DNA of 61,149 nt from Cytophagaceae bacterium. GTDB lineage: Bacteria > Bacteroidota > Bacteroidia > Cytophagales > Flexibacteraceae. The first letter of the stretch is position 1; each line of letters begins with the position of its first letter. Of this stretch, positions 3,391-46,873 are shown one piece after another. The stretch is from assembly GCA_027485575.1 (NCBI GenBank), contig JAIXQU010000130.1:1-61149 (forward strand), written 5' to 3'. Under the pieces are notes generated by a model. That model saw only the letters and a program-made list of their open reading frames with translations, searched no databases and was not told where the DNA came from. A program made the translations under genes and the position numbers.

Positions 3391-3413
3391 AGACTTGTTT
3401 TTAAGGTTAATAA

Positions 3414-4319: not shown

Positions 4320-4341
4320 CTCAGTTACGAAGATGACCACT
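4303..4341 (-). terminator. Terminator-like hairpin after rpsU containing the xerC start codon
   Basis: Perfect 10-bp arms AGTGGTCATC (4311-4320) and GATGACCACT (4332-4341), loop of 11 bases. On the minus strand the hairpin is followed by eight T's (4310-4303). It lies 25 bases after the rpsU stop. The xerC ATG (4319-4317) is in the second arm, so folding would hide the start and may terminate the rpsU transcript. Confidence 0.7.
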
Positions 4342-4365
4342 CTTATTTTTAAAACCCAGTGATTT

Positions 4366-4560: not shown

Positions 4561-4578
4561 ATTTTTTTGAATGGGCTG

Positions 4579-4610
4579 CAAAAATAGAATTCTCTTTCTG
4601 TTTTTGCAAC
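4579..4610 (-). promoter_or_regulatory. rpsU promoter (Bacteroidota type)
   Basis: On the minus strand, a -7 box TATTTTTG (4586-4579) lies 20 bases after GTTG (4610-4607), close to the Bacteroidota consensus TTTG-N19-TAnnTTTG. The predicted start near 4572 leaves a leader of about 12 bases before the rpsU ATG. Confidence 0.65.
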
Positions 4611-4618
4611 AGAAAAGA

Positions 4619-5476: not shown

Positions 5477-5480
5477 TTGA

Positions 5481-7524: not shown

Positions 7525-7526
7525 AA

Positions 7527-7913
7527 TCAGCTGTCCTGAGAATCAGATTTTAGCTGGTTCTCAATTTCATTAAAAAGAATTAAATCTATTGCCTCCTCAA
7601 CGGTGGGAACTATATTCAATACTGTATCCAATTGAGAAATTCGAACCAATTTGGCAACATGGTCTGAAAGGCAGCATAATACAAAGGAACCAATCGCCTC
7701 CTGGCACAATCTGTTTCCAATAAGTATAGAACTCAAACCGCTTGAATCAGAATACCTTACTCCAGACATGTCGAAGATAACATTCTTAATACCCTCATTA
7801 TTGAGGGTTACAAAGTATGCCTTGAGATCACTGGAGATTGTAGCATCCAGTTTTTCATTTCCAAGCTTTACAATAGTGTACTGCTCTTTTTGATTCCTCT
7901 CAATGTTGATCAT
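7527..7913 (-). CDS. STAS-domain anti-sigma-factor antagonist
   Basis: A 128-residue single STAS domain. VIFDMSGVRYSDSSGLSSIL (residues 45-64) contains the phosphorylatable-serine motif DSSGL (S57/S58). Such proteins act in partner-switching cascades with an anti-sigma kinase and a SpoIIE phosphatase. No kinase is adjacent; a SpoIIE-type phosphatase is encoded 8 kb away at 15,772. The start overlaps the purC stop by ATGA. The extended C-terminus (LILFNEIENQLKSDSQDS) is unremarkable. Confidence 0.82.
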   Translation of the reverse strand: MINIERNQKEQYTIVKLGNEKLDATISSDLKAYFVTLNNEGIKNVIFDMSGVRYSDSSGLSSILIGNRLCQEAIGSFVLCCLSDHVAKLVRISQLDTVLNIVPTVEEAIDLILFNEIENQLKSDSQDS

Positions 7914-8872: not shown

Positions 8873-8882
8873 AATAAAAAAG

Positions 8883-8890
8883 CAAACATA
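8883..8890 (-). promoter_or_regulatory. Probable purC operon -7 box
   Basis: TATGTTTG on the minus strand matches TAnnTTTG exactly. The predicted start is about 5 bases before the purC ATG (8872), so the mRNA would be almost leaderless. No good -33 box is seen; that region falls in the upstream gene's terminator. Confidence 0.45.
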
Positions 8891-8892
8891 GA

Positions 8893-8931
8893 AAAGACCA
8901 GCCTAAAATGGATATTTTTTGGCTGGTCTTT
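8893..8931 (-). terminator. Terminator between the PadR/PspC unit and purC
   Basis: An 11-bp perfect stem AAAGACCAGCC / GGCTGGTCTTT with a 17-base loop. On the minus strand it is followed by a short T-rich tail and ends transcription from the PadR-PspC-small protein unit. Confidence 0.65.
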
Positions 8932-8960
8932 CTGATTGAGTTAAAAAGTGGTGAAAGTCC

Positions 8961-9179
8961 TTATTTTTTTAATCCTTTCTTGAGGACATAATTGCTGTAA
9001 AAAGGACCAAATCCAAGGCCAAGTCTTCCCGGAAGCTTATCCTTTTTTATCTTAACCGTATTTTTTTGCTTTGATTGTTGTGCCATTGCTTTGCCTGAAG
9101 GGAGTCGGTATTGAAACAACATTGTAGACAAAACCAAAGCAGCAATCCAGATTCTTTTAATCCACATTTTCTTCTTCAT
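8961..9179 (-). CDS. Small exported protein of unknown function
   Basis: About 72 residues from the ATG at 9179 (other ATGs at 9197 and 9167). A basic start is followed by a hydrophobic segment (IWIAALVLSTMLF), then a polar basic tail ending in GRLGLGFGPFYSNYVLKKGLKK. This looks like a signal peptide or anchor plus a short secreted tail. The 5' end overlaps the last codons of the PspC gene, and a terminator follows, consistent with a third gene of that operon. I recognise no family. The open frame and location support it, but a chance ORF is possible. Confidence 0.5.
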   Translation of the reverse strand: MKKKMWIKRIWIAALVLSTMLFQYRLPSGKAMAQQSKQKNTVKIKKDKLPGRLGLGFGPFYSNYVLKKGLKK

Positions 9180-10965: not shown

Positions 10966-11333
10966 AACGATTCGGTTTGGGGGTTTGTAAATTGTGAAAG
11001 TGTTTCGGTTTTTGTCATTATCTGACTGACTGAAGCAGATATTTCCAGCCATGTATTGCCAAGCTCTTTGAGAAACTGATTTCCAATCTCTGTTAGCATG
11101 TAATACTTTCTTGGTGGTCCTGAAACAGACTCCACCCATTTGTAATCCAGATATCCGGCATTTTTAAGCCTGGTCAGGAGTGGATAAAGTGTTCCTTCTA
11201 CCACCATCATCTTTGCTTGTGTCAGCTCCTGAATCATATCTGAAGTGTACACCTCCCCTCTCGAAATAATGTTGAGGACGCACAATTCTAGAATTCCCTT
11301 CCGGAGCTGAACTTGTATATTGTCGATGTTCAT
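10962..11333 (-). CDS. PadR-family transcriptional regulator
   Basis: A 123-residue protein from the ATG at 11333 (MNIDNIQVQLRKGILELCVL). It has the PadR winged helix: ISRGEVYTSDMIQELTQAKMMVVEGTLYPLL, then RLKNAGYL and PPRKYYMLTEIG. The longer upstream frame would run through the promoter and is rejected. It is co-transcribed with the PspC gene and preceded by a perfect palindrome overlapping its promoter, so it probably autorepresses the operon. The effector is unknown. Confidence 0.9.
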   Translation of the reverse strand: MNIDNIQVQLRKGILELCVLNIISRGEVYTSDMIQELTQAKMMVVEGTLYPLLTRLKNAGYLDYKWVESVSGPPRKYYMLTEIGNQFLKELGNTWLEISASVSQIMTKTETLSQFTNPQTESL

Positions 11334-11358
11334 AGGAATTTTTAAAAGGTTGATGACG

Positions 11359-11395
11359 CAAAGATAACTAAGGTACTTTGTATTGCAAAGTACCT
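11359..11395 (-). promoter_or_regulatory. PadR operon promoter overlapped by a perfect palindromic operator
   Basis: The palindrome spans 11371-11395: 10-bp arms AGGTACTTTG and CAAAGTACCT around TATTG. On the minus strand TTTG (11389-11386, inside the palindrome) is 19 bases before TATCTTTG (11366-11359), an exact TTTG-N19-TAnnTTTG promoter. A repressor on the palindrome would cover the -33 box. The predicted leader is about 20 bases. Autorepression by PadR is inferred from position. Confidence 0.75.
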
Positions 11396-11713
11396 GTTTA
11401 AATAATTTTCCATACATAACATAGTACCAAGCAAGACTCGCTTCTATGCTTTGTCTTAATCATCAATAATTCAGTGGTTTACAATTTTTGTCTGATTCAA
11501 TTTGAAACAAATAAAAAAACTTGAACAAATGTTAAGTGGTAATTCTGATGGATAGATAGCTCGTTATTCTTAAAAAATACTCCTTAAAAAATGAGATTCA
11601 GCACTCAGGAATGACCGGTTCAGAAAAGGAAAGGAAATAATTTAGAATGATTCACAATAATTTTTTGGCATTGAATTTGACAACCTTAATCATTTTATAA
11701 CACATATACCAAA
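11396..11713. other. Intergenic region between PadR and the sorting-tail protein
   Basis: AT-rich spacer separating divergent genes. I see no open frame with coding character, no clear promoter for the 11,714 gene (only a weak TGAATTTG about 45 bases upstream) and no repeat. Confidence 0.5.
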
Positions 11714-12544
11714 ATGAAGAAAATATTTTTTGCCCTTGCCTTATTGATCAGCTTACAGGGATTAAAGGCCCAACAAATCTGGAGTGAGGACTTTCAAGGC
11801 TACAGTGGCTTTGGAGAAGTTCCTGGAAATGGCTGGATTACAACTGGGGTCGGTGGATTCCTTGTCCGGCTACGGGGACTTAATGCAGATACAAATGTGA
11901 AAGTAATAGAAGCCATTTTGACCCAAAACAGGAAAAAGGATTCTTTGATTACCCCTTCTTTTGGACCCTTGGCTGCCAATTCTATCCTTAGTTTTAAAGC
12001 CAGACTGGTTGAGAACTACAGTGGTATTATTCCAACTTTGAACCATTGGCCTGCCGCTGGCGATTTTGTTTCGGCCTACATTTCTACCGATGGAGGAACT
12101 ACTTACCAGCTCCTTCAAAATCTGATAACTAGTTTTCCAGCCACGGGAAGTAGTACTGCCTTTGTCAATTTTTCAATTCCTTTAAATGGATTTGATGGAC
12201 TTAATGCCAGGGTAAAATTCGTTACGAAATTGACAGCTGGAAGCTATTATCCTAGTTTTGATGACTTCTCTGTTACCAATTTAACCTCCATCAAATCTTT
12301 GAAGATAAATCCGGAATTAAGCCTGTATCCCAATCCCAGCAATGGCACTGTATTGTTATCTGCCAACGGGTTTTCTAATAGAGCTCAGGTGGAAGTGTTT
12401 AACATATTGGGAACAAAAGTTTTTTCAGGAAACCTAATCAATGAAAAAACCAATTTAGACCTTAGTGATTTAAAATCAGGAGTTTATCTTGTAAAAATCT
12501 CTGAAGGCAAACATGTAGCCGTAAACCGGTTAATTTTGAAATAA
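11714..12544 (+). CDS. Secreted protein with type IX secretion C-terminal sorting domain
   Basis: A 276-residue protein with a signal peptide (MKKIFFALALLISLQGLKAQ). Residues about 22-190 resemble the adhesin-like 'choice-of-anchor J' jelly-roll fold: IWSEDFQGYSGFGEVPGNGW at the start, SILSFKARL, AYISTDGGTTYQLLQ and RVKFVTKL. The last 80 residues are a typical type A sorting domain: LSLYPNPSNGTVLLSANG, VEVFNILGTKVFSG, DLSDLKSGVYLVKISEG, RLILK. It should pass the outer membrane through the type IX system and be anchored or released there. The function beyond surface localisation is not evident. Confidence 0.85.
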   Translation: MKKIFFALALLISLQGLKAQQIWSEDFQGYSGFGEVPGNGWITTGVGGFLVRLRGLNADTNVKVIEAILTQNRKKDSLITPSFGPLAANSILSFKARLVENYSGIIPTLNHWPAAGDFVSAYISTDGGTTYQLLQNLITSFPATGSSTAFVNFSIPLNGFDGLNARVKFVTKLTAGSYYPSFDDFSVTNLTSIKSLKINPELSLYPNPSNGTVLLSANGFSNRAQVEVFNILGTKVFSGNLINEKTNLDLSDLKSGVYLVKISEGKHVAVNRLILK

Positions 12545-30873: not shown

Positions 30874-31389
30874 TCAGCCTTTATAATGACTTAAAAAGGA
30901 AAAATTTTGGTCCATATTTTCATAGAAACTTGCCGATGACCAGTAATAGGACTCAGGAATTTGGCAGATACCAGCATTTACTGGGTTCCAATGGATGTAT
31001 TCCAAATTCTGCATAAATACTGAGTGGGAGAATAGCTCCACAGAAAGTGGATTTCTTTGCCAGAACTGATATTTTCTATCCTTTGCATTTACCTCAAATT
31101 GGGAAAGTACATGGGGGTGAAATTCCATCAAATCGAAGCGAATTTTTTGAGCGATAAATCTGAGAAAGTCTCGCTGAATATCCTGGTAAAGATGCGGTGG
31201 TTTTATTTGCCATATCAGATGGATGTGATTTGACAGAATACTAAAAGAGAAAAGGAAAATACGATTGTCTTTCACCAAAAACTGAAGGCTGTCTACTATA
31301 ATCTGTTTGTACTTATCAGGTTTTAGTAAGTGCTTAATCTCATAAATATATGCTGTAAAAAAATGAGGGTACTGGGTTATGATTTCCAT
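30874..31389 (-). CDS. REP-associated tyrosine transposase (RAYT, Y1_Tnp family)
   Basis: A 171-residue protein from the ATG at 31389 (the frame runs to 31545, but the upstream part crosses a flanking hairpin). It has the Y1 transposase HUH motif: SILSNHIHLIWQIKP (HIH), and the RAYT-type C-terminus EYIHWNPVNAGICQIPESYY-WSS, which includes the candidate nucleophilic Tyr. RAYTs are domesticated relatives of IS200/IS605 TnpA acting on REP hairpins. Both sides carry matching GGTG-TTTT-CACC hairpins within 65-100 bases of the gene. Length and motifs look intact. Confidence 0.87.
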   Translation of the reverse strand: MEIITQYPHFFTAYIYEIKHLLKPDKYKQIIVDSLQFLVKDNRIFLFSFSILSNHIHLIWQIKPPHLYQDIQRDFLRFIAQKIRFDLMEFHPHVLSQFEVNAKDRKYQFWQRNPLSVELFSHSVFMQNLEYIHWNPVNAGICQIPESYYWSSASFYENMDQNFSFLSHYKG

Positions 31390-31436
31390 AATGCTGTAAA
31401 TTCGGTGAATCAAAAGATACGCTTCAACATGAATTA

Positions 31437-31455
31437 TTGTTGGTGAAAACACCAA
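31437..31455. repeat. Hairpin flanking the RAYT gene (upstream copy)
   Basis: TTGGTG-AAAA-CACCAA on the plus strand. It is the inverted partner of the hairpin at 30760-30778 (19 identical bases when one is read on the minus strand). It lies 48 bases upstream of the RAYT ATG. Confidence 0.55.
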
Positions 31456-32368
31456 ATATGGTGTAACCATGATACAAAGTTCCGGATGTTGCCAGCTTTG
31501 GAATAATGAAACTATATCCAACGGTATTGACTGGCAAAATGCCATGCTTTAATAAAGTCCAAATAGAATTTACAATTTCTATTTTTAGTTGGACCTCATT
31601 CCAGTTTCTCCAGTGGAGAAATGACTAAGGCAAATTTTAAATTCAAATTAGACTTTATATAATTTATTGAATGACTGATTTTTGTTGGACTTGATTCGCC
31701 TTCGGAGGAAAAAAGTATGTTCCGACAATCAAAGGGTAGAAAGGAACTTTTGGCTTTGATTTTTACGTTTCCAGTTGACCTTTTTACCTGCAAAAGCTTT
31801 TTTTTCAAAAAAAATTAAGACTGAATCAGCAAATGTAAAAGCTGAACCAAACCACCCATAACACAGTTTACGTTATCGATTTTTTTTGGTAATTTATTGC
31901 AAAAAAATGAATGAAAAAAACCACAACTACTTCATTTTCAAACCAATTAATCCTTTTTTGTTTCGTAGAAAACGGATGCAAAACCCCTGTTTCAATTGCC
32001 AAATATTAAAAGTTGAATCATTGCCATTTAAGCCACACAATTCCGTAAAATCCTAAACCTCCATGCCTTGGAATGAAAGTCATTTGATTTCACCGTTAAT
32101 TTTTTACCATCTTTTCACAATTTAATTACTTTTGTGAGATTATCGAATCAAAGCCAGATCAACTAAAAATTTTTTCATGATAAAGCTGTACTAATCCCCT
32201 CATTTATTAGGACTTATAAAAGAAAGTAAAGATTTTATAAAAATTTACTTTGAGGTGGATTACGATTTTCATGTAAAAAGGATTGAGGAAGATTGGCATT
32301 GCCGATATACTTAATGAGATTTATTTTACATCATTCTTACATATACCATCATTTTAATCAAGAAAATT
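31456..32368. other. Long AT-rich intergenic region before the giant gene
   Basis: About 900 bases with no convincing gene. Visible: a perfect stem-loop TTTCTCC-AGT-GGAGAAA (31605-31621) and a consensus -7 box TACTTTTG (32127-32134) about 235 bases before the giant gene, without a good -33 box. A 70-codon minus frame at 31,596-31,808 does not look coding. Confidence 0.45.
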
Positions 32369-35300
32369 ATGAATTTTTCTACTTTAATCAGGTCTGGAAA
32401 TAGGGCTTTGCGTGGCTCTGGTTTTGGGAAAGTGGTTTTAGGGTTGTTGCTGGTGGCTTCGCCGTTTTTGGTGAAAGGACAAACCACCTATGATTGGTTA
32501 AACACTGCCCCGGATGGTAATTTCAGGCAAGGTGCTGCCGGTGCACGCTGGAATCCAGGAGGATTGTTTGACGAACCTCCTTATGGTATCGTTCAGTTTA
32601 ACAACAATAACCAGACGACCATGACAAACAATGTGGCCGGAACCTGGAGTCAGTTTAAATTCAACTTTGGATCTTCGGCCACAACAGGAAGAACTATTGG
32701 AGGTAACACTGTTCAATTTTTCGACTTTGGTGGCACATGGCCTTTTATCCAAAACCAATCTTCAGCTTCCCATACCATCAACTTTCCAATTTTGGTGGGC
32801 ACAGGTGGTACATTTAATCTGGAGCTTGTTGCCAATGCAGGTAACCTCGTTTTTGGTGGTACCTTAGGAAATCAGGGAAAAAATGTATTAGTATATGGAA
32901 ATAATACTGCCATAGATGGGACCAATCGTTCTGTTCGTTTGGGGGGCATCACCAGCGGCGCAGGTAAATTAATTGTTTCCCAATTTGGAGTAGCTAAACT
33001 AAATGTAGCCCACACCTACAGCGGAAACACTGAAATTGACAATGGAGAACTATGGATTGAAACTGGTGGTAGTGCAACAAGCAGTGCTTTTTTTGTAGGA
33101 AACGGTGGTCAATTAGGTAACGTAACCAAGCTTTGGCTTGCCAATTCAACAGGTGGAACAACATTTTCAAACAGCTTCACCATTAACAATGGAAATGCCA
33201 ATACTCGTGAAATTGGCGGTTTAAATTCATCAGGAACGCATACATTTTCTGGTTCCATCACCAACAACTCTACAACCGGAGGTTTATCTGTTAACGCCTT
33301 GAGCGCCGGAGGAACCACCACCCTTTCAGGCGTAGTTTCTGGTGGAGGGGCAATTTCTACTACGGGTTCAGGAACTGTTATTATTTCAGGTGCTTCTCAA
33401 AACACCTACACCAACACATTTACAGCGGGTGCAGCTACAACAGTTTTCAATAAATCTGCCGATACCAGGGCCATAGGAACTGGAAATATGACAATAAATA
33501 CAGGAGTAGCGGTGAGAACCGATGCCAATAATCAATTGGGGACAGGAACTCCTTCTTTAATTACCATAAATGGAACTGGTGTTTTTAACCTAAACAACAC
33601 CAACCAAAAAATTGCTTTAGCTAGTGCTAGCACAACTTCTTCTGTTACACTTGGTAGTGGAACTTTAAATATTGACAATGCCGGAACTGATACCTATGCC
33701 GGTACAATCACCGGTTCTGGTGGCCTTACTAAAACAGGTGCAGGAACACAAATATTATCCAATACAGGAAACAGTTATACAGGTGCTACCACCATTACAG
33801 GTGGTATTTTGCGTTTAGGTGCTTCAGGCGTTATAGCCGATGCCAGCAACGTGGTAATGAACGGTGGTACATTGAGTACGGGTGCTGCTGCCGGTTTTGC
33901 TGAAACGGTAGGTACACTAAGCATGACCGCAAGTTCCACAATTGCATTAGGCACAGGTAGCCATAACTTAACATTTGCCAATAGCAGTGCTACAGCTTTC
34001 ACGGCTGGAACAATATTGACCATCACAGGTTGGACAGGAACCAACAACGGAAATTCTTCTGGAACTGCGGGTCGAATATTTGTTGGCAATTCAGCAGGTG
34101 GGCTAACTGGTTTGCAATTATCAAGAATTCGATTCAACATAAGCTCAGTTCTTTGCGGGGCTATGCAACTTAGCACAGGTGAAGTTGTACCAACAGGAGG
34201 GCCGGTTCAGTATTACGGCGGAGCAACTGGAACATGGACTGGTAATCTTTGGGGTGTAAATGAGCTAGGACCATACACAAGCGTTTGGGTATCAGGTAGC
34301 CATGCCATAATGAATATTGCCAGCGCAAATACTTTAACATTTGCAACAACCAATGTGGCTGCAATTACCTACAACGCCAATATCACTTTTGCTTCTGGCG
34401 GAACTTTTCAAACTGGGCCTTCTGGTGGTGCCATTTGTCCAATTTATGTAGATGCCACTAGAACCTTTACAATGGCGGGGCAAGGAATTTCAACAGCAGC
34501 AGGTTCGGGGTTAATTAAGTTGGGAACGGGAACTTTGCAAAGTACGAATGGTAATACCTATCCTGGTGGTTTTACTTTGAATTCAGGTACAATGGTTGTT
34601 GGAGGGGTAAATGCCATGGGAAATGGCGGTGCATTAAATCTTAATGGCGGTACACTAGGAACGGTTGCCAATAGAAACATTACAGCCAGATATACCGGAA
34701 TTAATATTGGTGGTGATTTCACAATTGGAGATGCAGTAAACAACAGCACTTTCATTTTTGCGGATAATGTTGCCTTAGGAAGTGGTGTTACCCGAACAAT
34801 AACACTTGGAGCTGCAGCGACTCAAACGTTTAATGGCATTATCAGTGGTACAAGTTCAAACTTAGTTTTAGCTGCAACAGCTGCAGGCTCACTTCAATTG
34901 GGTGGTGTAAACACGTATGGAGGAAATACAACAATCAATGGCGGAACATTACGAACCTCCGTAGCAGCCGCACTTCCATCTACAACCAATGTAACTCTGG
35001 CAAATACTGCCGGAGCCAATCTGGATTTGGTAATCAGTAATCAAACAATTGCCTCCATTGCTGGTGGAGGTTCCACAGGCGGAAACATTAGTTTAGGTGC
35101 TACGGTTGCGGCCCTTACTGTTAATCAATCTACCAACACCACATATTCAGGTTTAATCAGCGGAGCTAGTATCGGAGGCCTGATCAAAACAGGTTCTGGA
35201 ATATTGACCCTAGGTCACACGGCCAATACCTACACTGGCCCAACCACAATCACAGCAGGTGAACTTCGGATTAACCCAAGTACAACAACCGGAAGTTTTG

Positions 35301-38300
35301 CCTCCCAGGTGGTATTAAATGGTGGAAAACTTAGTTCCACAGGGATAACCTTAAACACGGTTTGGACAAATTCATCTACATTAAAGCTGGATGCAAACTC
35401 AAGCATAGATCTGGGTTCAAATGTGCATGAGTTAAGATTTGCGGCTTCAGACGCAATTACATGGGGGGCTTTCACCATAACTGTAAATGGCTGGACCGGA
35501 ACGGCTGGGAATTCTGGAGCCACAGGTCGCATTTTTGTTGGAACTACAAATGGTGGACTAATTTCCGGTCAGTTAAGTAAAATAAATTTTGCAGGATATG
35601 GCAGCGGAGCCGTAATTTTATCAACTGGCGAAATAGTTCCAGCCGCTGCTCCTGTCAGCTACACATGGACAGGGGGCGCAGCAGACGGACTTTGGGCCTC
35701 TTCCGGCAACTGGAGTCCAGCTGGAGTGCCTGCTTCAGCTGACCAGGTAACCATAGTAACAGCAGGTACCAATCTTAATTTAGCAGATGCAAGAACCGTA
35801 AACAATGCCGTTTTTAATGGCAACTTCAATGTAACATCAACAGGAAGTTTGACGGTTACAGGAAATGTAACCTATACTTCAGGAACAGGAACCTGGGATT
35901 GTGCAAGTACCTTTACCATGTCCTCTTCTTCGTCGCAAACCATCCCTGCCTACAATTATGGAAATTTAGTGGTTTCAGGTGGTGCCCGAACCTTGGTAAA
36001 TGGTTCTACAACAAGGGTTTGTGGCAACTATACACCCGGCACATCCACAACGGTGACCGGAAGCACTTTTGAGTTTAATGGAACTGCAGCACAGGCCATC
36101 AATAACAATGCGGCTGCTTTTGCGACTTTAAACATCACAAATTCCTCTGCAACAGTGACAGCAAATGCAAACGTCACTGCCTCAACAGCAATGACAGTGG
36201 GAAGCGGCGCTATTTTCAATATGGCATCTGCCACAACTTTAAATGTCAGCAGTGCTACCGTTTTGGTTACGGGTACTTTAAGAAACTCAAGTGGAAACAG
36301 TATTACCCAAACCAGTGCCACTGTAACGATTAATGGAACCTATGACCACAATATGAATGGAGGAGCAGTCCTTTCCGGAACATGGGGTGGGTCTTCTAAT
36401 TTCTTAATAAACACCGGAGCAACAACGGCATTACCTGCCAGTAATCTGGGACAATCTTTTAACGATGTAACAATAAATGCGGCCCTTATTGGCACGCAAA
36501 ATTTTGGTGCAGCACTTACCACCATCGGAAGGGACCTCATTGTGAATGGAACTGGTTCTACCATAGGATTAACAGCAACAACTGCCTATGCCGGAACAAT
36601 CGGTCGGAATTTCACTATCAATGCAGGAAATATAACCTTAGTAACAGGTAACAATACCAGCAATGCTTCATTGGCTGTAACTGGAAATGTGAGCATTAAT
36701 GGTGGTGGGTTAACGGTTGCCGGCGGTTCATCTTCAGGAACTGGAACAGCCGCATTAACAGTCGGAGGAACTTTTTCCAACTCATCTTCAACAGGAACTT
36801 CTTTTGTGCTGAATGGCGGATCAAAAACAGGAGTAACAGCAACCATTACAGGCCTTTACACACAATCTGGTTCTGGAACTTCCTCTTTGGGTCAAAATAC
36901 TTCAGGGGCAGCTACGCTTACTTGTAATGGAGGGATTACCATCTCAAATGGAACATTCAATGTAGCCAACGGTGGGCCTGCAACTTTAACAGTTGCCGCC
37001 GCCAATACATTGACGGTAAGCGGAGGAACATTAATTGGTTCAGCTACTGCACATATTAGCACAATCAATGCCAATGGCAATGTGACCGTAAGTTCAGGAA
37101 TATTGACTTTGGCCAATATTGCTTCCTCAACTTCTAATATGACCATGGCAAACAACAATACCATGACTGTCAGTGGTTCAGGAACAGTAAATGTGGCTGT
37201 TGCGGGAATTGGAAATTTAAATGTGGGTACAAGTACAAGCACGGTCACTACAACGGCTTTAACAATCAATGGAGGTTCCTTAGTTATAGCCAGTGGCGGA
37301 ACAGGTACCGTTAATAGCTATGCTGATTTGAATTTAACCAGCGGTTCGATGAGCAGAAGTTTAGGAACTGCGGTTTTCAATTTTCTAAAACCAGGAGTTG
37401 ACCCAGTTATACCTGGAAACCATGTTATTACGCAATCTTCTGGGACTATTTCAGGAATCATTGCTATGAATGTGGGTTCTGGTGCAGCAAATTGGCCATT
37501 GCTGACTCTTGGTTCTTCAACCATCAATATTGGAGCAAATACTACTTTAACAATTACCGCCAATGCCAAAATTGACTGTGGAGCCACAAATGTTCTAACT
37601 GGCTTAACCTTTACCCTTGCCACGCAGGGAACTTTAATCACAGCAAATACTGCAGGAATTACAACCGGAGCTTCTGGTTCAATTCAAACAACCAACAGAA
37701 ATTTTGGAACCTTAGGATATTTCATTTATAATGGAACAAGTGCTCAGGTTACAGGAAACGCATTTCCAGCCAGCTCTGCTATTTTTTCGATATTTAATTC
37801 AGCGGGAGTAACTTTAACATCCTCCCATACCATTTTCGCCGGAGGCCAGTTCATTTTATTCCTTTCACCTTTGGGAGGCTTTTTGGATTTGGCAGGGAAT
37901 AACTTAACCATTCAAAACACGGCTACCATAGTTGGTGCCTCATCTTCAAATTATATCAGAACAAGTGGCGCAGGAAGATTAATCCGAACCGTTGGAACCT
38001 CTGTTCTTTTTCCAATCGGAACAAGTGCAGGTTACAACCCACTTCTATTAAGTTCAGGAACCAGCGATACCTATGCCGTAAGGGTTATAAATGGTGCAAT
38101 CAGTGGGAATACTACCCCAAATGACATTACAAAAACAATTAACCGTCTTTGGGAAGTAACTGAAGGAACTGCAGGTGGAACGGCCACAATAGTTGCAGCC
38201 TATAATGTTGGTGAAGAAAACAATGCAGGTGTATTTAATGCTGCTTCTCAGCGATATATCGGTATTGCAAATGGGCCGGGGGTTAATAGTTTTTCCCAAG

Positions 38301-41300
38301 TAGTAACAGCTACAGGTACCACCACTTTTACCGCTTCAGGAAGCATGACACCAACGGTTGCCTCTTATTTTATTGGTCTTGGCAAGGACGACGGTTTGGT
38401 TTCGCCAATTACCACTTATACCTGGACCGGACTGGCAGGAGATAATGCCTGGACAAGTCCAAACAATTGGAGTCCAAATACTAGTGCAGCTGGTCCAACT
38501 GCCATTGACCATGTCATAATCAATATTGCCACCGCTCCATTGATTATTTCAGGAAGCAGAACCATATCCAATTTTGAGCTTTCCGGAACCGGAACTTTCA
38601 GTATGGCGGCTTCAAGTACTTTAACCATAAATGGTGATTTGACTTATAACGGTTCTTCAGGGGCCACTGCCACGTTTGACTGCAGCAGTACTTTGAATAT
38701 AACCAGTTCATTATCTCAGCCGATTCCTCCATTAAATTATGGAAATCTCAATGCCTCAGGAGGTGCCAGAAACTGGTCTTCTACCGGTACCATAGGTATT
38801 TGCGGAATCTTTACACCAGGTAGTTCAAATAACATTTCAACTTCAACAGTAAATTTTAATGGTGCAGCCGGGCAAACCATAAATGCAATTAATTATTTTA
38901 ACCTAACCAATTCATCCAACACAACCCGTACCCTTGGTGCTGGCACTATTGATATTGCCAATTCATATACACCAACCACGGCTGTAACAAGTCCAGGCAC
39001 TGGTACGGTAAATTTTAGCAGTGCATCAGTAAATCAAACCATTCCTTGTTCCAATTATTTCAACATTACCAATACTGGTAATTTCAACAGGACACTAGCT
39101 TCCACTGGAGCAAACACAAATAAAATCACCGTAGCCGGGACCTTTACTTTTGGGACGGGCCCATATACCATCGGAACCAGCACTGTTGAATATACAGGTG
39201 CTGGATATAATTTAACAGCTTTTACGTATTATAATGCCATTTTCAATGGTTCTGGAATATTCAGTTTGAGCGGCAATACGATAACCGTTAATAACAATTT
39301 CAATGCTACTGCCGGGACTGTAATAATTGGATCAAGTGGAGGTAATGGGATACTTAATGTCAATGGAACATTGACGATAGATGGAGGCACTTTAAATACA
39401 ACCAATACCACAACAGCTGGAACCATAAATTTATTAGGTAATTTTGGAATTAGCGCTGGAACAATGACAAAATCAGGGTCAGGAACCGGAACTGTTAATT
39501 TTATACATGCCAGCAATCCACAAACTTTTAATCAAAGTGGGGGCACCATTTCTAATGCGAACAATTGGAACTTTGGAAATGGCTCAGTTGCCAATACTGT
39601 ACAGTTTACGTCAAATGTTTCGGCAAGCACTGGTGTATTTAATGTAAACTCAGGAACTACAGTTGACTTAGGAGCAAATCAATTAACGGTTACTTCAGGA
39701 ACCTTTAATCTAAACTCAGGTGCTAGTTTTATAACTACCAATGCTGCTGGAATTTTAGCAGGCGCAACAGCAGTCTCTGGCTCAATACTAAGAGGGGCTT
39801 CTAGTTCTTTCTCATTTAATACAGGAGCAAACTATACATTTGGTGGAGCAAACACAGGTACGGGATTTACGGGTGCCAACAATTTAACTATCAACAATGC
39901 TTCAAATGTTACTTTAACATCTTCTGCAACAGTATCTGGGACACTTACTTTTTCAAATGGAATATTAATTCTTGGTGCAAATACCTTAACCGCTAATGGA
40001 TCTGTTTCAGGTGCAGGAGCTACCAGATATGTAAGAACCAGTGGAACAGGAAGATTGATAAAATCGGTCAGTTCATCTCCCGTTTTGTTCGAAGTTGGAA
40101 ATTCTGCTTATAATCCCATTACAATTGCAAATTCAGGTACCAGTGATGTACTGGGAATTGCAGTGGCTGATGCCATTAGTCAAACACTTAATAATTCCAG
40201 CAATGTTGTTAACCGAAGCTGGACCATCACTGAAGGAACAGCTGGCGGAAGCAACCTGGCTGTAACCACACAATGGAATAGTCCGGGAGAGGAAGCGGCT
40301 GGATTTACAGCTGGTTATGCAGCTGGTACAAAGCGTTTGGCAGTCTGGACTGGTTCAAACTGGACACAAGTAGCTGTAAGTTTTTCTGGTGCGGGTACAA
40401 AAACTTTTTCCACCAGTACAAACTTTTTACCTGCAACCTTAACTCCTGGCACTTATACAATAGCAGCGGGTATTGATGATGCATTTATTTGTACAGCCCC
40501 ACCAACCATAACCAGCTTCCTGCCAACCAGTGCTTACGCCGGTGATGCAATTACCATTACCGGAACTGGCTTAACGGGATTAACAGTTGCTTCTATAGGA
40601 GGAATAAACGCCACAATTGGGACTCAATCCGGGACTTCTGTTGTGTTAACCGTTGGTCCAGGCGCTTCAGGAAACATTATTTTGGGCACCAATGCATTAT
40701 GTACGGCTACCAGTAGTGGAACTTTTACCTTTTCAGGATTCATTTCCACCCAGAGTGGTCCATGGGGAACGGGAGCAACATGGCGAGGAGGAAATGTGCC
40801 AACCACTCCTGGAGCCACAGTAGTTATTGATGCGACACACAATGTTACTTCCAATGTAGCATCCAATCCAGCATCAATTACTGTAAATTCTACTGGAACG
40901 CTTACATTAACCAATTCAGCAAGGTTGGGAACCAGTGCCAGCACGGCAGTTGTAGTAGATGGTACCTTAACATGTCCGGTTTCGGTAATTGGCGCATCCA
41001 ATGGCATGTATTGCAATACTTTAACAATCAACAATGGTGGTATTTTCAACAACAATGCCGGAAACGCAGATGCCATTTCAGCCCTTACTTTTACAGTAAA
41101 TGCAGGTGGAACATATAACCATGATGCTGTCAGTAGTAGTACAAATGCAAATACTTTTGACATGGCAGGAGGAACCAGCGGAAATTTTTTCAATGCGGAT
41201 GCCACTGTGAATATAACCAAATGGGGGCAAACAGGAAACACCCCTACGGCTCCATTTCCAACCTCAGCAACAGGAACTTATGGAAATTTAACCATAAATA

Positions 41301-44300
41301 TTACTGGCCAGGTATATACTGGAGCATGGAATATTCAGGGAGGAATCACAAATACCAAAAACTTCACCATTATTGGAACAGGTTCAAGGGAATTACGGAT
41401 TTTTACAAATGCAGCAGGTGGAACATTGAATGTTAGTGGAGATATGAGCGTTACCGGAGGAATAACAGCCCTTCTGAATTCTGGTTCAACATGTTCAGGA
41501 AGCTGTCCAAACGCAGTACTTAATGTTTCCGGCAACTTTAGTGTATCAGGCGGGACATTTGATTTAACTGGTATCAGTGGGAATAGTACAACCGGAAATA
41601 CAACGATTAACCTATTTGGTAACTGTTCTATTTCTGGTGCAGGCCAAATTCGTCGAACAACTGCCAACTCAGGAACCAATGCCATTCGCTTTGTAAAAAA
41701 CGGAGGACAAACCTTTTCTACCACAGCTACTGGAATCAATACCAATGTGGTAAACATCGACATTGGTGCTGCTGCCGCTCCTGCTTTACCAGTATCTACA
41801 GTTCAGATGCTTAGCAATATTCCAATGAACGCTGGTGCTACAATGACTGTGTTCCAAAATGCCACTTTGGATGCCAGAGCGGAGCGTACTGTAACCGGAG
41901 GAACTTTCACCATGAATACGGGTGGTCAAATCAGAATTGGCTCACAACAAGGAATCGTTTCATCAGCTTCTGGTTCGCCCAACAATGGAAACATCAGAAC
42001 AACTACCCGAAATTATAACGGTGGAGGAAATTATTCATACTGCAGCTTTACCAACAATCAGACTACCGGAGATGGATTGCCAACGACCATAACGGGTGTC
42101 TTGAAAATTGCCAACTCAGGTACAACTTCTAACAAAACTGTCACCTTAACCACAGTTCCTACCACCACGACAACTTTAACACTTGATTCCGGTTTCTTTG
42201 AAGCTGGCGTAGGGGGAACTATTAACATAGCCGCAGGCGGGACTGTTATCCGAACTGCTACGGGAACCGGCGATTTTGCAACGGGTTCGAGTGCAGGAAC
42301 AGTTAACTTTAATGGTGCGGGCTCTTTCTCAGGAAGCTCTAATCCTTACAATGTAACGATCAATACAGGAGCTGTAAACTTTGGGGCTGACGTGGTAACC
42401 ATTCAAAACGGAGGTACTTTCCAGATTAATGGGGGAAATGTAGGTTCATCAAACCCTCCTTATTATGCGGTTGGTTCTACATTGAGATACAATACAGGTT
42501 ACGGTCGCTTTGACGAATGGAATTCAACCAGTGGCAGAGGATACCCACACCATGTCAGAATTAGTGCAGGAACATTTGACCTTGGAAGTGGTGGTTCGGC
42601 AAACCGACAATGTGGTGGGAATCTCACCATAGATGATGGCACCACTTTTACAATGAGTGCAATGGCTAATTCATTAACAGTTTCAGGCAATGTGACTATG
42701 GGTTCTGCCGCAACAGCAACATTGACACTTTCTTCAGCTATGGGTGGTGACCTTTATGTGGGTGGGAACTGGACACGAAATGCTACGTCAACTTTAAATA
42801 CCAATAGCAGAGAAGTTATTTTCAATGGTACTGCTGCTCAAAGCTTTACTGGTGTTACAACATTCGATTATATACGGATGAACAACAATTCGACCGGACT
42901 AACTCTTAATAACAACATGATTGTTAATCAGCGATTGCAGATAGATGACGGCCAGATAATCCTTGGAACCAACAATATTACATTGAATGGATCTGCTTTT
43001 GTTACCGGAGGAGGGGCTTCTGATTTTATCGTAACCAACAGCACCGGGGTTTTAAGTCAGCCTGTTGTCAATGGTGAAGGAGACAATTGGTTTCCGGTTG
43101 GGCCTTCTACTAACATTTTTGGCCCGGTTACATTGAACAATACAGGAGCAGGTACAGATAATATTTCAGTCCGGGTTCGGGACATCCGTGCTATTGCCAG
43201 CCCAACCTACACCAATGCTGTAAATGACACTACACAGATGGTAAAAATGGAATGGTTTATGAACGAAGGAACACCGGGCGGCAACAATATCAGAACCACT
43301 TTTGGATGGCAAGGTGCTGGCACTGCCGGTGCAGGCAATGTCGAAGGCTCTGGTTTTGACAGAACCAGTGGTGTCTATCACGGAAATTACAATGGAACAA
43401 AATATGTAGTGAGGGCAGCCAATGCAACAGGAGGCTCCAACCCATGGTTTAGCCTATCAACAATCGCACTTCCATACACAGGGAATCTAAGTAACCAGGC
43501 ATTTGTGGTTGGAAATATCAATGGCATTTTGCCTTGTTTCCAGACCTTACTGGCTGGCGATTGGAATACCAGTACAAACTGGGTAGATCTGTCAGTTCCA
43601 CCATTGGACGCCACTGTATGTCTGAACCATGCAATGACTCTGGCTTCTGCTCCACCAAATCCATCCGGAGTTACCATCAATGCCGGAGGTTCTGTTGCTA
43701 TAAACAACGGGGTTACTTTAACATTCGAACCCAATGCATTTTTCACCAATAGCTCAGGGTCTTTCAAGAACATGACAACCGGAACCATTCAATTCTCAGG
43801 ATTGGCTGTGGTGAACGGAGCAAATGCGATTGGATTTAATAATCTTCAGCTGAAAGACAATACCACATTTACTACCACACCAACCATCAACAATGAATTG
43901 GAAATATTGCCAGGTGGGTTTGTCATTTCAGCAGGTAGTGTAAATTATGGAGCTTCGTCAACCTTAAAATACAATACAGGTGGCCCTTACAGCAGAAGTA
44001 ATGAATGGAGAGCAACCTCTGGTGCGGGCTACCCCGCCAATGTTTTGGTAACTGGAAATACTTCTTTAAATCTGGATGCAGGAACCGGCGTAAACCGAAT
44101 GATTCAGGGCAATATGCAGATTGACAATGGTTCTTCAGTGACTCAGGGTGCTACTGGATTTAACCTTACAGTTCCTGGAAATTTCACATTGAATGGTGGC
44201 TATACCCAATCGACCACTTTTGGAGGAGATTTGGTTTTAGGCGGCAATTGGAGTTCTGCATCAACGGCTACCCTAACGGCAAACAACAGAGATGTTCGAT

Positions 44301-46873
44301 TTAACGGAACCAGCAGTACACAAACCATTGCAAACCTGGCTTCTGGCTTGCAGTTTGGCTTTTTGACAGTGGACAATACCTCGGTTGGAGGCGTTGATTT
44401 GATGAACACAATTACTGCCAATACTTTCCGTGTAAATGCATCCAGAACATTTAGTCTTACTTCTGACAAAATCATTATTTCTCCAGGCGGAAACGTTCAG
44501 ATCAACGGAACTTTTAATGCAGGATCGGGAACCATTGAATATACCAATGGAGGTAATTTTACCAACGATGGGACATTCAACAGGGGAACAAGCACAGTTG
44601 ACTTTTTGAGTACCACACCCGGAGTAGTGGTTGGTTCAGTACAAACCAATTTCCATAACTTAAGACTTGCTCCGAGTGGGTCGGTTAATTTCAATTCCGG
44701 AGCCTTAAGGGGTAGGGTTTCCGGAACCTTGCAAATGAGGGCCGGAAGTTTCTGTATAGGAAATGCACCAATTTATGAAGCAGGTTCAAAACTGATGTAT
44801 TCTGGTGGTGGCACTTTCAACAGAAATGTTGAGTGGGATCCAACTACCCTTCAAAAAGTTGAAGTAACCAACAACACAACCTTAAAATGTGGTCCAAATG
44901 GAACAGGCTTTTCACATGTGATGGCCGATTCACTCATCATTCAATCTGGTTCAACTTTTGACATGAGTGGTCCGGATATGACAGCTTCAACTGTGGTCGG
45001 AGGAAATGTTCATCTCAGGGGAACATTAACACTTTCCAATACAGCTGGTGGAGATTTAGAAGTTGCCGGTGACTGGCAAAATGATGGCGGTACTTTCAAC
45101 TCCAATGGCAGGCTTACCACCTTTAACGGTTCATCGAACGGATCCATCAAGGGTTCATCCAACACCACATTCAGCTTCCTGACTGTAAATAAGGGAATCA
45201 ATAAAACGCTTACCGCCTCCGTTCCATTTACGATTTCCCGACCTCCTGGAGGAACAACACTTCAGATTTCGGGTGGAATCTTTGATTTGAATGGCCAGAC
45301 TTTAAGTTTGGGATCTGGAAGCAATACATTGAGAATTGATGCCGGTTTTACAAACGGCCAAACATTAAGAACCGGAGGAACAAGTATAACAGCATTCTCT
45401 AATTTCAGAAGCAATGGTTCCAATACCGATACCCTAGGTGGAAAAGTTGACTATTCCGGCTCTGGTGCGGAAACACTAATTTCACCAGTGAAAGGATATA
45501 ATTTGTTATGGATAACAGGTGGCTCAACCAAAACCATCAGTCAAAATACAAGGGTGAATGACAGCCTTTGGATTGCGCCTTCTACCACTTTGGATTTTGG
45601 TGCATCTGCTTCAATTTTGGAATCCAAAGGAAATGTGGTAAACAATGGCTCGACCATTGGTTCTGGGACTGGAAAAATAGAATTGAAAGGTTTGGCTGTC
45701 CAAAACATTAGTGGAAACGGTACGTACAGAAATCTGGATGTGAACAATACCAACAACGTAAACAGTACAGGCACCCCTACCATTTCAAGCAAATTGAATG
45801 TGGTTATTGGAAAAATTCTACAGGCCTCAGCTTCTGATAGTATAACGCTTGGTTCAAGTGCAACGATTACCGAAATTATTGGTGGAGGTGAGCATTTCGT
45901 CCGTGGGAAATTATCTACGACCAGAACTGTTGGTACGGCGGCAGAAACTTTTGGTGGAATGGGAATAGAATTAACTGCAGGAGCCAATTTAGGAACCGTT
46001 ACCGCAACCCGGCAATCAGGAATTGCTCTTACCGGCACAGCATCATGTTGTTCCGGATTTACATCCATCAATAGAAATTGGGTAATTAAACCTTCTGTTC
46101 AACCATCTTTAGCTGACAGAAATTTGACTCTTACATGGCAGTCTGAGGATGACAATGCTATGGATATGACAAATCTTCAATTATGGAAAAGATCAAGTAC
46201 GGCTTCTCCCTGGGAAAGTATTGATGCGACACAGGATGTTTCCTTAGGAAATCCAAGGTCAGCTTCCTGGACCGGTGTTTCAAGTTTCTCACAATTTACC
46301 GGTGCAGACCTAAGTAATCCATTGCCACTTGGATTGATATCGCTTTCCGGTAAAAACGAAAACGGCAATGGTTTATTAACCTGGAGGGTGGAAAATGGAA
46401 CAAATCATTCCATTTATAAAATATATAAATCAACAGATGAAAAGAATTTTTCTGAAATTGGTTTGGTAGTTGCCAAAGAGAATAACAATCAGAATTCATA
46501 TCAGTTTACTGACAAGGATTTGAAAAAAGACAGTTACTATAGAATTCAATTGGTTCAAAAAGATGGAAAAGCAGAAGTATCCCAAACTGTTGCTATCAGG
46601 ACCGATGCCTTTGGAAAACCGCAAATCAGGATGTATCCAAACCCAACCAGTGGCGGGGCAAGAATATTAATGGATGGCAACTTCAACAATGAAGGAATGA
46701 TGTCTTTTGAAATATTTGGTATGGATGGAAAAGCAAATGGAAAATTGGCTGGTGAGTTCAATGAGATCAATCAGAAATTTGAAAACTTCACTTCTACCTT
46801 GCCAGCCGGAATGTATCAGGTAAAGATTACATCTGCTGACCAGGTAAAAACTTTGAAACTCATTAAGAGATAA
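32369..46873 (+). CDS. Giant modular secreted adhesin-like protein with type IX sorting tail
   Basis: 4,834 residues in one uninterrupted frame. Signal peptide: KVVLGLLLVASPFLVKGQ. The body is Gly/Thr/Ser/Asn-rich beta-strand repeat, predicted to form a long beta-helix. Autotransporter-associated strand repeats occur near 451 (GGLTKTGAGTQILSNTGNSY), 711, 831 and 936 (GGLIKTGSGILTLG). About five super-modules start with Trp-rich segments near 41, 1098 (YTWTGGAADGLWASSGNWSP), 2017 (YTWTGLAGDNAWTSPNNWSP), 2792 and 3723. Most end in a W-x-x-EGT-x-GG segment (about 1929, 2617, 3630). An IPT/TIG-like segment is near 2710-2790. Residues 4652-4745 resemble the beta domain before sorting tails; 4752-4834 (IRMYPNPTSGGARILMDGNF to LKLIKR) is a type A sorting domain. 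Cell-surface adhesion is inferred; there is no autotransporter barrel. Confidence 0.9.
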   Translation: MNFSTLIRSGNRALRGSGFGKVVLGLLLVASPFLVKGQTTYDWLNTAPDGNFRQGAAGARWNPGGLFDEPPYGIVQFNNNNQTTMTNNVAGTWSQFKFNFGSSATTGRTIGGNTVQFFDFGGTWPFIQNQSSASHTINFPILVGTGGTFNLELVANAGNLVFGGTLGNQGKNVLVYGNNTAIDGTNRSVRLGGITSGAGKLIVSQFGVAKLNVAHTYSGNTEIDNGELWIETGGSATSSAFFVGNGGQLGNVTKLWLANSTGGTTFSNSFTINNGNANTREIGGLNSSGTHTFSGSITNNSTTGGLSVNALSAGGTTTLSGVVSGGGAISTTGSGTVIISGASQNTYTNTFTAGAATTVFNKSADTRAIGTGNMTINTGVAVRTDANNQLGTGTPSLITINGTGVFNLNNTNQKIALASASTTSSVTLGSGTLNIDNAGTDTYAGTITGSGGLTKTGAGTQILSNTGNSYTGATTITGGILRLGASGVIADASNVVMNGGTLSTGAAAGFAETVGTLSMTASSTIALGTGSHNLTFANSSATAFTAGTILTITGWTGTNNGNSSGTAGRIFVGNSAGGLTGLQLSRIRFNISSVLCGAMQLSTGEVVPTGGPVQYYGGATGTWTGNLWGVNELGPYTSVWVSGSHAIMNIASANTLTFATTNVAAITYNANITFASGGTFQTGPSGGAICPIYVDATRTFTMAGQGISTAAGSGLIKLGTGTLQSTNGNTYPGGFTLNSGTMVVGGVNAMGNGGALNLNGGTLGTVANRNITARYTGINIGGDFTIGDAVNNSTFIFADNVALGSGVTRTITLGAAATQTFNGIISGTSSNLVLAATAAGSLQLGGVNTYGGNTTINGGTLRTSVAAALPSTTNVTLANTAGANLDLVISNQTIASIAGGGSTGGNISLGATVAALTVNQSTNTTYSGLISGASIGGLIKTGSGILTLGHTANTYTGPTTITAGELRINPSTTTGSFASQVVLNGGKLSSTGITLNTVWTNSSTLKLDANSSIDLGSNVHELRFAASDAITWGAFTITVNGWTGTAGNSGATGRIFVGTTNGGLISGQLSKINFAGYGSGAVILSTGEIVPAAAPVSYTWTGGAADGLWASSGNWSPAGVPASADQVTIVTAGTNLNLADARTVNNAVFNGNFNVTSTGSLTVTGNVTYTSGTGTWDCASTFTMSSSSSQTIPAYNYGNLVVSGGARTLVNGSTTRVCGNYTPGTSTTVTGSTFEFNGTAAQAINNNAAAFATLNITNSSATVTANANVTASTAMTVGSGAIFNMASATTLNVSSATVLVTGTLRNSSGNSITQTSATVTINGTYDHNMNGGAVLSGTWGGSSNFLINTGATTALPASNLGQSFNDVTINAALIGTQNFGAALTTIGRDLIVNGTGSTIGLTATTAYAGTIGRNFTINAGNITLVTGNNTSNASLAVTGNVSINGGGLTVAGGSSSGTGTAALTVGGTFSNSSSTGTSFVLNGGSKTGVTATITGLYTQSGSGTSSLGQNTSGAATLTCNGGITISNGTFNVANGGPATLTVAAANTLTVSGGTLIGSATAHISTINANGNVTVSSGILTLANIASSTSNMTMANNNTMTVSGSGTVNVAVAGIGNLNVGTSTSTVTTTALTINGGSLVIASGGTGTVNSYADLNLTSGSMSRSLGTAVFNFLKPGVDPVIPGNHVITQSSGTISGIIAMNVGSGAANWPLLTLGSSTINIGANTTLTITANAKIDCGATNVLTGLTFTLATQGTLITANTAGITTGASGSIQTTNRNFGTLGYFIYNGTSAQVTGNAFPASSAIFSIFNSAGVTLTSSHTIFAGGQFILFLSPLGGFLDLAGNNLTIQNTATIVGASSSNYIRTSGAGRLIRTVGTSVLFPIGTSAGYNPLLLSSGTSDTYAVRVINGAISGNTTPNDITKTINRLWEVTEGTAGGTATIVAAYNVGEENNAGVFNAASQRYIGIANGPGVNSFSQVVTATGTTTFTASGSMTPTVASYFIGLGKDDGLVSPITTYTWTGLAGDNAWTSPNNWSPNTSAAGPTAIDHVIINIATAPLIISGSRTISNFELSGTGTFSMAASSTLTINGDLTYNGSSGATATFDCSSTLNITSSLSQPIPPLNYGNLNASGGARNWSSTGTIGICGIFTPGSSNNISTSTVNFNGAAGQTINAINYFNLTNSSNTTRTLGAGTIDIANSYTPTTAVTSPGTGTVNFSSASVNQTIPCSNYFNITNTGNFNRTLASTGANTNKITVAGTFTFGTGPYTIGTSTVEYTGAGYNLTAFTYYNAIFNGSGIFSLSGNTITVNNNFNATAGTVIIGSSGGNGILNVNGTLTIDGGTLNTTNTTTAGTINLLGNFGISAGTMTKSGSGTGTVNFIHASNPQTFNQSGGTISNANNWNFGNGSVANTVQFTSNVSASTGVFNVNSGTTVDLGANQLTVTSGTFNLNSGASFITTNAAGILAGATAVSGSILRGASSSFSFNTGANYTFGGANTGTGFTGANNLTINNASNVTLTSSATVSGTLTFSNGILILGANTLTANGSVSGAGATRYVRTSGTGRLIKSVSSSPVLFEVGNSAYNPITIANSGTSDVLGIAVADAISQTLNNSSNVVNRSWTITEGTAGGSNLAVTTQWNSPGEEAAGFTAGYAAGTKRLAVWTGSNWTQVAVSFSGAGTKTFSTSTNFLPATLTPGTYTIAAGIDDAFICTAPPTITSFLPTSAYAGDAITITGTGLTGLTVASIGGINATIGTQSGTSVVLTVGPGASGNIILGTNALCTATSSGTFTFSGFISTQSGPWGTGATWRGGNVPTTPGATVVIDATHNVTSNVASNPASITVNSTGTLTLTNSARLGTSASTAVVVDGTLTCPVSVIGASNGMYCNTLTINNGGIFNNNAGNADAISALTFTVNAGGTYNHDAVSSSTNANTFDMAGGTSGNFFNADATVNITKWGQTGNTPTAPFPTSATGTYGNLTINITGQVYTGAWNIQGGITNTKNFTIIGTGSRELRIFTNAAGGTLNVSGDMSVTGGITALLNSGSTCSGSCPNAVLNVSGNFSVSGGTFDLTGISGNSTTGNTTINLFGNCSISGAGQIRRTTANSGTNAIRFVKNGGQTFSTTATGINTNVVNIDIGAAAAPALPVSTVQMLSNIPMNAGATMTVFQNATLDARAERTVTGGTFTMNTGGQIRIGSQQGIVSSASGSPNNGNIRTTTRNYNGGGNYSYCSFTNNQTTGDGLPTTITGVLKIANSGTTSNKTVTLTTVPTTTTTLTLDSGFFEAGVGGTINIAAGGTVIRTATGTGDFATGSSAGTVNFNGAGSFSGSSNPYNVTINTGAVNFGADVVTIQNGGTFQINGGNVGSSNPPYYAVGSTLRYNTGYGRFDEWNSTSGRGYPHHVRISAGTFDLGSGGSANRQCGGNLTIDDGTTFTMSAMANSLTVSGNVTMGSAATATLTLSSAMGGDLYVGGNWTRNATSTLNTNSREVIFNGTAAQSFTGVTTFDYIRMNNNSTGLTLNNNMIVNQRLQIDDGQIILGTNNITLNGSAFVTGGGASDFIVTNSTGVLSQPVVNGEGDNWFPVGPSTNIFGPVTLNNTGAGTDNISVRVRDIRAIASPTYTNAVNDTTQMVKMEWFMNEGTPGGNNIRTTFGWQGAGTAGAGNVEGSGFDRTSGVYHGNYNGTKYVVRAANATGGSNPWFSLSTIALPYTGNLSNQAFVVGNINGILPCFQTLLAGDWNTSTNWVDLSVPPLDATVCLNHAMTLASAPPNPSGVTINAGGSVAINNGVTLTFEPNAFFTNSSGSFKNMTTGTIQFSGLAVVNGANAIGFNNLQLKDNTTFTTTPTINNELEILPGGFVISAGSVNYGASSTLKYNTGGPYSRSNEWRATSGAGYPANVLVTGNTSLNLDAGTGVNRMIQGNMQIDNGSSVTQGATGFNLTVPGNFTLNGGYTQSTTFGGDLVLGGNWSSASTATLTANNRDVRFNGTSSTQTIANLASGLQFGFLTVDNTSVGGVDLMNTITANTFRVNASRTFSLTSDKIIISPGGNVQINGTFNAGSGTIEYTNGGNFTNDGTFNRGTSTVDFLSTTPGVVVGSVQTNFHNLRLAPSGSVNFNSGALRGRVSGTLQMRAGSFCIGNAPIYEAGSKLMYSGGGTFNRNVEWDPTTLQKVEVTNNTTLKCGPNGTGFSHVMADSLIIQSGSTFDMSGPDMTASTVVGGNVHLRGTLTLSNTAGGDLEVAGDWQNDGGTFNSNGRLTTFNGSSNGSIKGSSNTTFSFLTVNKGINKTLTASVPFTISRPPGGTTLQISGGIFDLNGQTLSLGSGSNTLRIDAGFTNGQTLRTGGTSITAFSNFRSNGSNTDTLGGKVDYSGSGAETLISPVKGYNLLWITGGSTKTISQNTRVNDSLWIAPSTTLDFGASASILESKGNVVNNGSTIGSGTGKIELKGLAVQNISGNGTYRNLDVNNTNNVNSTGTPTISSKLNVVIGKILQASASDSITLGSSATITEIIGGGEHFVRGKLSTTRTVGTAAETFGGMGIELTAGANLGTVTATRQSGIALTGTASCCSGFTSINRNWVIKPSVQPSLADRNLTLTWQSEDDNAMDMTNLQLWKRSSTASPWESIDATQDVSLGNPRSASWTGVSSFSQFTGADLSNPLPLGLISLSGKNENGNGLLTWRVENGTNHSIYKIYKSTDEKNFSEIGLVVAKENNNQNSYQFTDKDLKKDSYYRIQLVQKDGKAEVSQTVAIRTDAFGKPQIRMYPNPTSGGARILMDGNFNNEGMMSFEIFGMDGKANGKLAGEFNEINQKFENFTSTLPAGMYQVKITSADQVKTLKLIKR

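Follow-up and report, generated by a model that had tools for sequence, protein, structure and literature searches.

The window, by which we mean the whole 61,149-nucleotide stretch of Cytophagaceae DNA analysed here, encodes a giant protein that is probably a 475-kDa beta-helical surface adhesin or fibre about 100 nm long, exported tail first through SprA/PorV of the type IX secretion system (T9SS). The gene is real, large, and well formed, and its main interest lies in the conservation of one module (module 5) and in the export of so long a rod, the build of the protein itself being ordinary for its bacterial order. The initial annotation had described a very large, modular surface protein tagged for T9SS and bearing strand repeats of the autotransporter type, a description that the matches to PATR repeats and to a T9SS sorting domain support.

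Results

Reading frame and module architecture

The frame (positions 32369-46873, + strand) is open from its ATG through its stop, confirming the intact 14.5 kb first annotated, and encodes a complete product of 4,834 residues with a calculated mass of 487 kDa. Thr, Gly, Asn, Ser, and Ala make up most of the protein, and because chance similarity is a real risk in such a composition, the modules were compared against shuffled sequences. The G+C content is 42 to 45% across the giant gene (33001-45000) versus 36 to 41% in the rest of the window, a rise that perhaps comes from the Gly/Thr/Ala-rich composition. Upstream, on the opposite strand (30874-31545, - strand), lies a gene for a REP-associated tyrosine transposase-like protein (63.3 bits, under the curated cut-off of 80), and positions 11714-12544 of the same window encode a 276-residue protein whose T9SS tail scores strongly (55.9 bits).

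All features of the giant protein are given on the + strand. Following a probable signal peptide, read by eye (residues 1-38, 32369-32482, cleavage before QTT), the protein is predicted to begin with two PATR-type beta-helices, module 1a (approximately residues 41-615, 32489-34213, with an approximate boundary) and module 1b (approximately residues 616-1092, 34214-35644). Module 2 (residues 1093-2010, 35645-38398) has an opening element at 35654-35860 and a closing element at 37883-38392; module 3 (residues 2011-2707, 38399-40489), a predicted beta-helix, has the corresponding elements at 38408-38629 and 39965-40480. An IPT/TIG domain (residues 2712-2776, 40502-40696; Pfam TIG 33.8 bits, cut-off 20.9) lies between modules 3 and 4. 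Module 4 (residues 2786-3722, 40724-43534) has a weak opening and a closing element at 42959-43522, and module 5 (residues 3723-4565, 43535-46063), also a predicted beta-helix, forms the conserved core. The C-terminal part consists of a post-helix beta-sandwich (residues 4566-4664, 46064-46360) modelled with low-to-middling confidence, a fibronectin type III (FnIII)-like domain (residues 4665-4752, 46361-46624) with FnIII structure matches at Z of about 8 to 9 and rmsd mostly below 3.3, and a T9SS type A C-terminal sorting domain (residues 4755-4834, 46631-46870).

In self-alignments, modules 2 and 3 match each other at their starts (115 bits over 178 columns, E 8e-30) and at their ends (93 bits over 372 columns), and further matches link modules 4 and 5 (98.6 bits), 3 and 4 (69 bits), and 2 and 4 (49 bits), with identities between modules of about 30 to 43%; the maximum over 20 shuffles of all pairs was 26.6 bits. 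Scores so far above the shuffles identify modules 2-5, at the level of sequence, as true homologues, and the concern that the modules might resemble each other in composition only is answered by the same comparison. The first module behaves differently, its best match to modules 2-5 (28.9 bits, with module 5) not clearly exceeding the shuffle maximum. Its approximately 1,090 residues are instead two modules, whose halves align over 193 columns at 45% identity (94.4 bits) and whose closing segments are shared (profile probability 99.5%). Of the five equivalent modules initially annotated, the homology therefore holds for modules 2-5, whereas the initial stretch shows no clear kinship with them and itself comprises two PATR modules. 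As read from these alignments, the layout is two PATR modules and four modules of a second kind, with the TIG domain among the latter.

The elements proposed to delimit the modules show the same unevenness. Among the five Trp-rich openings, those at residues 1098 and 2017 are strongly alike, and those at 2792 and 3723 match the 1098+2017 profile weakly (probability 28% and 51%) and each other at 68%, the opening at 3723 reaching only 6% as a lone sequence; the best of 40 random segments reached 13%. The opening at residue 41, by contrast, does not match that profile (0.45%) and is not supported as a copy. The three closing segments are present at W1928, W2618, and W3629, with the spacing corrected from W-x-x-EGT-x-GG to W-x-x-x-EGT-x-GG, three residues separating W and E, and none of 500 composition shuffles contained even one such motif. 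A fourth, related closing had been seen in the SINRNW segment, which lies within the beta-sandwich; its register is right, but its similarity to the closings (3% and 14% in two tests) is not significant against a best value of 18% among 40 random segments, and we do not retain it.

Collinearity and conservation among homologues

When 59 genomes were queried with the final 2,824 residues, 48 gave matches, many of them over the C-terminal domains only. Long homologues were found in G001, a genome of the same genus (5,407 residues), and in G005 (5,583 residues), and a short one in G006 (1,361 residues), while G002 and G003 hold homologue pieces cut by contig ends. The records sharing the C-terminal part include metagenome-assembled genomes labelled Spirosoma fluviale, Hymenobacteraceae, and Cytophagaceae. 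A search for relatives with other module counts had been proposed at the outset, and module number does differ across these homologues of 1,361-5,583 residues, with three closing elements in the window protein, three in the G001 protein, and five in the G005 protein. A whole-protein query against the genome contigs recovered no relative, and self-BLAST of the two long homologues and one paralogue gave no off-diagonal hits, probably a limit of the method.

The collinearity of these proteins bears on whether assembly could have fused several surface-protein genes into a chimeric frame, for which an assembly of 198 contigs with other giant proteins might be cited. The G001 homologue, from another assembly, however, aligns over residues 453-1446 (51% identity) and 1253-4834 (46% identity), crossing every internal junction from module 1b onward and remaining collinear over residues 453-4834, and no tandem DNA repeats were found inside the frame 32369-46873. 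We consider a chimera, which the initial annotation had named as a possible refutation, extremely improbable.

Conservation is far from uniform along the protein. Identity to the G001 homologue is 72% in module 5, 70% in the sandwich, 63% in module 1b, 30 to 52% in module 4, 39% in module 3, and 42% in the FnIII-like domain and tail; identity to the G005 homologue is 55% in module 5, 37% in the tail, 33% in module 1a, and 28% in module 1b. When module 5 and part of the sequence beyond it were searched family-wide, 10 of 11 genomes matched, five of them strongly (its own genome, G001, G002, G005, and G006). By these sequence comparisons, the presumably cell-proximal helix, module 5, is fixed and the outer modules are variable, with module 5 well above the sorting tail.

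A phage or plasmid origin was considered and rejected: module 2 had no match among 50,697 phage records, and for module 5 with the sandwich the sole hits among 72,556 records were two short ones on Hymenobacter plasmids, covering 13-14% of the query. Regarding gene neighbourhood, the homologous genes in G001 and G003 have similar divergent neighbours (L049, 18097-19485, and L050, 784-2190), M23 peptidase-like by eye, from which the upstream neighbour of the window gene differs.

PATR repeats on T9SS-tagged proteins

Over the whole protein, PATR scores 53.9 bits with the Pfam model (cut-off 27) and 57.8 bits with the NCBIfam model. The matches begin at approximately residues 453, 715, 839, and 938 (33725-33817 in module 1a; 34511-34600, 34883-34954, and 35180-35272 in module 1b), and two single repeats exceed the cut-off (43 and 46.2 bits). 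Strand repeats known from autotransporters are thus present in the first module as annotated, although four matches between about residues 453 and 938 do not fill it.

The same annotation had read the protein as one route's passenger architecture joined to the targeting signal of another route, and our survey of 148 genomes of the order Cytophagales does not support treating this as remarkable. PATR matches occur in 14 of the 148 genomes (over cut-off in 10) and fall in 17 frames. The 3' end is visible in 11 of these, including the window protein, and every one closes with a T9SS type A tail, eight of them with PATR over cut-off; outside the 11 are G001:C212, G007:C34, G068:C100, G093:C179, and G134:C477, apparently running off contig ends, and G002:C236. 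Type V translocator barrels (PF03797) over cut-off were present in three of the 148 genomes, the genome of the window protein not among them. Within the order, as judged from these frames, PATR is normally carried by T9SS cargo, and PATR itself denotes a repeat of beta-helices and is no signal for type V secretion. What looks like a mixture of two secretion systems reflects the wide sharing of the fold and does not represent a new hybrid.

If the protein were a passenger of the type V autotransporter or two-partner kind whose C-terminus only resembles the T9SS fold, this would account for the PATR repeats and for the autotransporter passengers among the structure matches described below. Yet no type V translocator beta-barrel was found in the giant protein by Pfam up to an E value of 1, the sole PF03797 match of the genome lies under cut-off in a separate frame of 281 residues, and the T9SS domain exceeds its NCBIfam cut-off; such a passenger is hardly credible, and type V export was rejected on the first two of these grounds.

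The same genome encodes another giant protein, at 251-12226 (- strand) of G000:C146 (L054); it has 3,992 residues with 16 stretches of PATR, ends in a T9SS tail, and is similar to modules 1 and 2 of the window protein. In the open-access literature, we found no report of PATR combined with T9SS, nor do passages of PMC9606717 treat the combination.

Sorting domain and export machinery

The sorting domain at the C-terminus stands as first annotated, with a TIGR04183 match of 36.7 bits (cut-off 23); PF18962 scored 23.9 bits on the tail in the whole-protein scan, under its cut-off of 27, and 32.8 bits in the genome search. The genome contains 149 type A tail matches (150 of 180 candidates were scored), of which 140 exceed the family cut-off and seven lie in frames of at least 3,000 residues. 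Its export genes include SprA in two contig pieces (1,932 and 466 bits, over cut-off), PorV (437 bits), and PorU (1,119 bits). Searches of the assembly for gldL, gldM, and gldN found none of the three. Among 12 genomes, gldM is present in 10, the exceptions being this genome and G001, in which none of gldKLMN has a strong match. Because contig C115 (G000:C115:1-2128) starts within gldK, its base 1 truncating the gene, with a porP-like gene adjoining, the missing motor genes most likely lie in an assembly gap. A true absence of the T9SS motor from this genome seems unlikely on the same evidence.

Predicted structure of modules 3 and 5

Structure prediction, proposed for one module, was run for two. 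The AlphaFold model of residues 3723-4834 has a mean pLDDT of 74.7, with values mostly of 70-90 in the helix and lower ones over the final 300 residues; that of residues 2011-2785 has a mean of 69.5, with the first 450 residues high and the closing part and TIG domain mostly below 50. Both modules are modelled as beta-helices, and at the level of these predictions the fold is clear. Foldseek gave weak matches (best E 2.3e-3 and 1.5e-2, none below 0.001), with the SepA autotransporter at the top for both models; rmsd was high in many of the long structural alignments. A second structure aligner matched module 5 to EtpA, a phage tailspike, an autotransporter self-associating protein, a PL6 lyase, Ag43, and EspP (Z 11.0 to 13.3, rmsd reaching 20 or higher in several cases), and module 3 to fungal Awp adhesin domains, EtpA, a phage tail protein, and a hemopexin-binding protein (Z 11.2 to 13.9). 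Among solved structures, the best matches belong mainly to secreted adhesins with a beta-helical fold and to passengers of autotransporters (EtpA, Ag43, EspP, SepA, Awp1), and phage tailspikes and polysaccharide lyases match too. The stretch 45908-46360 (model residues 792-929), spanning the end of module 5 and the sandwich, matched ankyrin ZU5 over about 120 residues (Z 8.2 to 8.7, rmsd 3.3 to 3.5) and has low model confidence.

A beta-helix has 20 to 25 residues per coil and rises 0.48 nm per coil. From these values, the helical part would measure 87 to 109 nm if continuous.

The lyase and tailspike matches raise the alternative that the protein acts on or binds glycans, module 5 or module 2 bearing a lyase-like or carbohydrate-binding groove and the remainder serving as a display rod. 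PL6 alginate lyases and a phage tailspike match at Z 9.1 to 12.4, and the conservation of module 5 (72% versus 42% in the tail) goes beyond what a passive stalk would need. Right-handed beta-helices all match each other at such a level, however, and among Pfam and NCBIfam families we found no enzyme or carbohydrate-binding family, nor any binding or enzymatic domain beyond the folds described; we regard this alternative as rather unlikely. A structural coat or S-layer-like component in place of a specific adhesin is a still poorer candidate. RsaA is among the structure matches, weakly (Z 6.3 to 7.4), and T9SS exports the S-layer proteins of Tannerella, as stated in part of PMC10202324, but length and module number vary strongly among the relatives, unlike those of a lattice subunit.

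Discussion

We favour a T9SS-exported surface rod. The tail of T9SS cargo is described in excerpts of PMC10994853 and PMC10202324 as necessary and sufficient for export, and type A cargo, in the former, as exiting SprA with PorV and being released or linked to lipopolysaccharide. For the window protein, Sec export would come first, PorV in the SprA translocon would then take up the C-terminal domain, and the chain would emerge outside tail end first. PorU would remove the tail, then link the protein to surface lipopolysaccharide or release it, consistent with the account in sections of PMC10994853 and PMC10202324 that PorU cuts the tail and the cargo is then lipopolysaccharide-linked or released. 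The passenger would stack its beta-helices into a rod, some 90 to 110 nm long if continuous, with the two PATR modules far from the cell, then the four second-family modules with their TIG spacer, and the sandwich and FnIII-like domain at the cell-proximal end, holding the outer modules ready to bind surfaces, neighbouring cells, or glycans. We infer secretion, orientation, anchoring, length, and adhesion from these features, and the term adhesin, in particular, from the architecture.

Among known systems, the window protein shares with T9SS type A proteins (PF18962/TIGR04183) the C-terminal domain, a probable signal peptide read by eye, and PorV and PorU genes; it is the longest among the 149 tail matches of its genome and otherwise the same in kind. 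By description, it is likened to the T9SS-exported surface adhesins SprB and RemA of F. johnsoniae, motility adhesins of which SprB reaches several hundred kDa (PMC10202324, in part); its type A tail is that of RemA, whereas SprB has a type B tail. With PATR proteins (PF12951/TIGR02601), such as the type V passengers ShdA and Ssp, it shares the four PATR matches of its first two modules, but it has no barrel and carries PATR at the N-terminal, presumably cell-distal, end. PATR aids secretion in type V proteins, according to part of PMC9977779; in the window protein, it is probably just a helix rung. The predicted fold is common to beta-helix adhesins of the two-partner and autotransporter types, EtpA among them (Z 13.3 and 11.9), which differ in secretion route and share 9-12% identity with it. 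Like Periscope proteins, it is a module-repeat rod whose module number varies between relatives, but the defining Periscope repeats are highly identical (PMC9704523, in part), in contrast to modules about 30 to 43% identical and a frame free of tandem DNA repeats.

As the tail enters the T9SS pore first, the part adjoining it would emerge first. Module 5 might then act as a conserved folding nucleus, folding outside first, seeding the rod, and drawing the helix out rung by rung; this reading draws on the identity of module 5 (72% and 55%) relative to the tail (42% and 37%), and we think it improbable. Rung-by-rung folding outside has been proposed for type V passengers, and a rod of about 100 nm exceeds the width of the periplasm. 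If the folding-nucleus reading were true, T9SS would export a largely unfolded giant, against the usual picture, given in parts of PMC10202324, in which T9SS substrates fold in the periplasm before export.

For the order Cytophagales, our results mean that a PATR annotation is poor evidence of type V secretion, since T9SS cargo regularly carries such repeats. A predicted rod of 475 kDa near 100 nm would provide a test case for the T9SS export of giant beta-helical cargo, and for the reason why the cell-proximal module is the best conserved.
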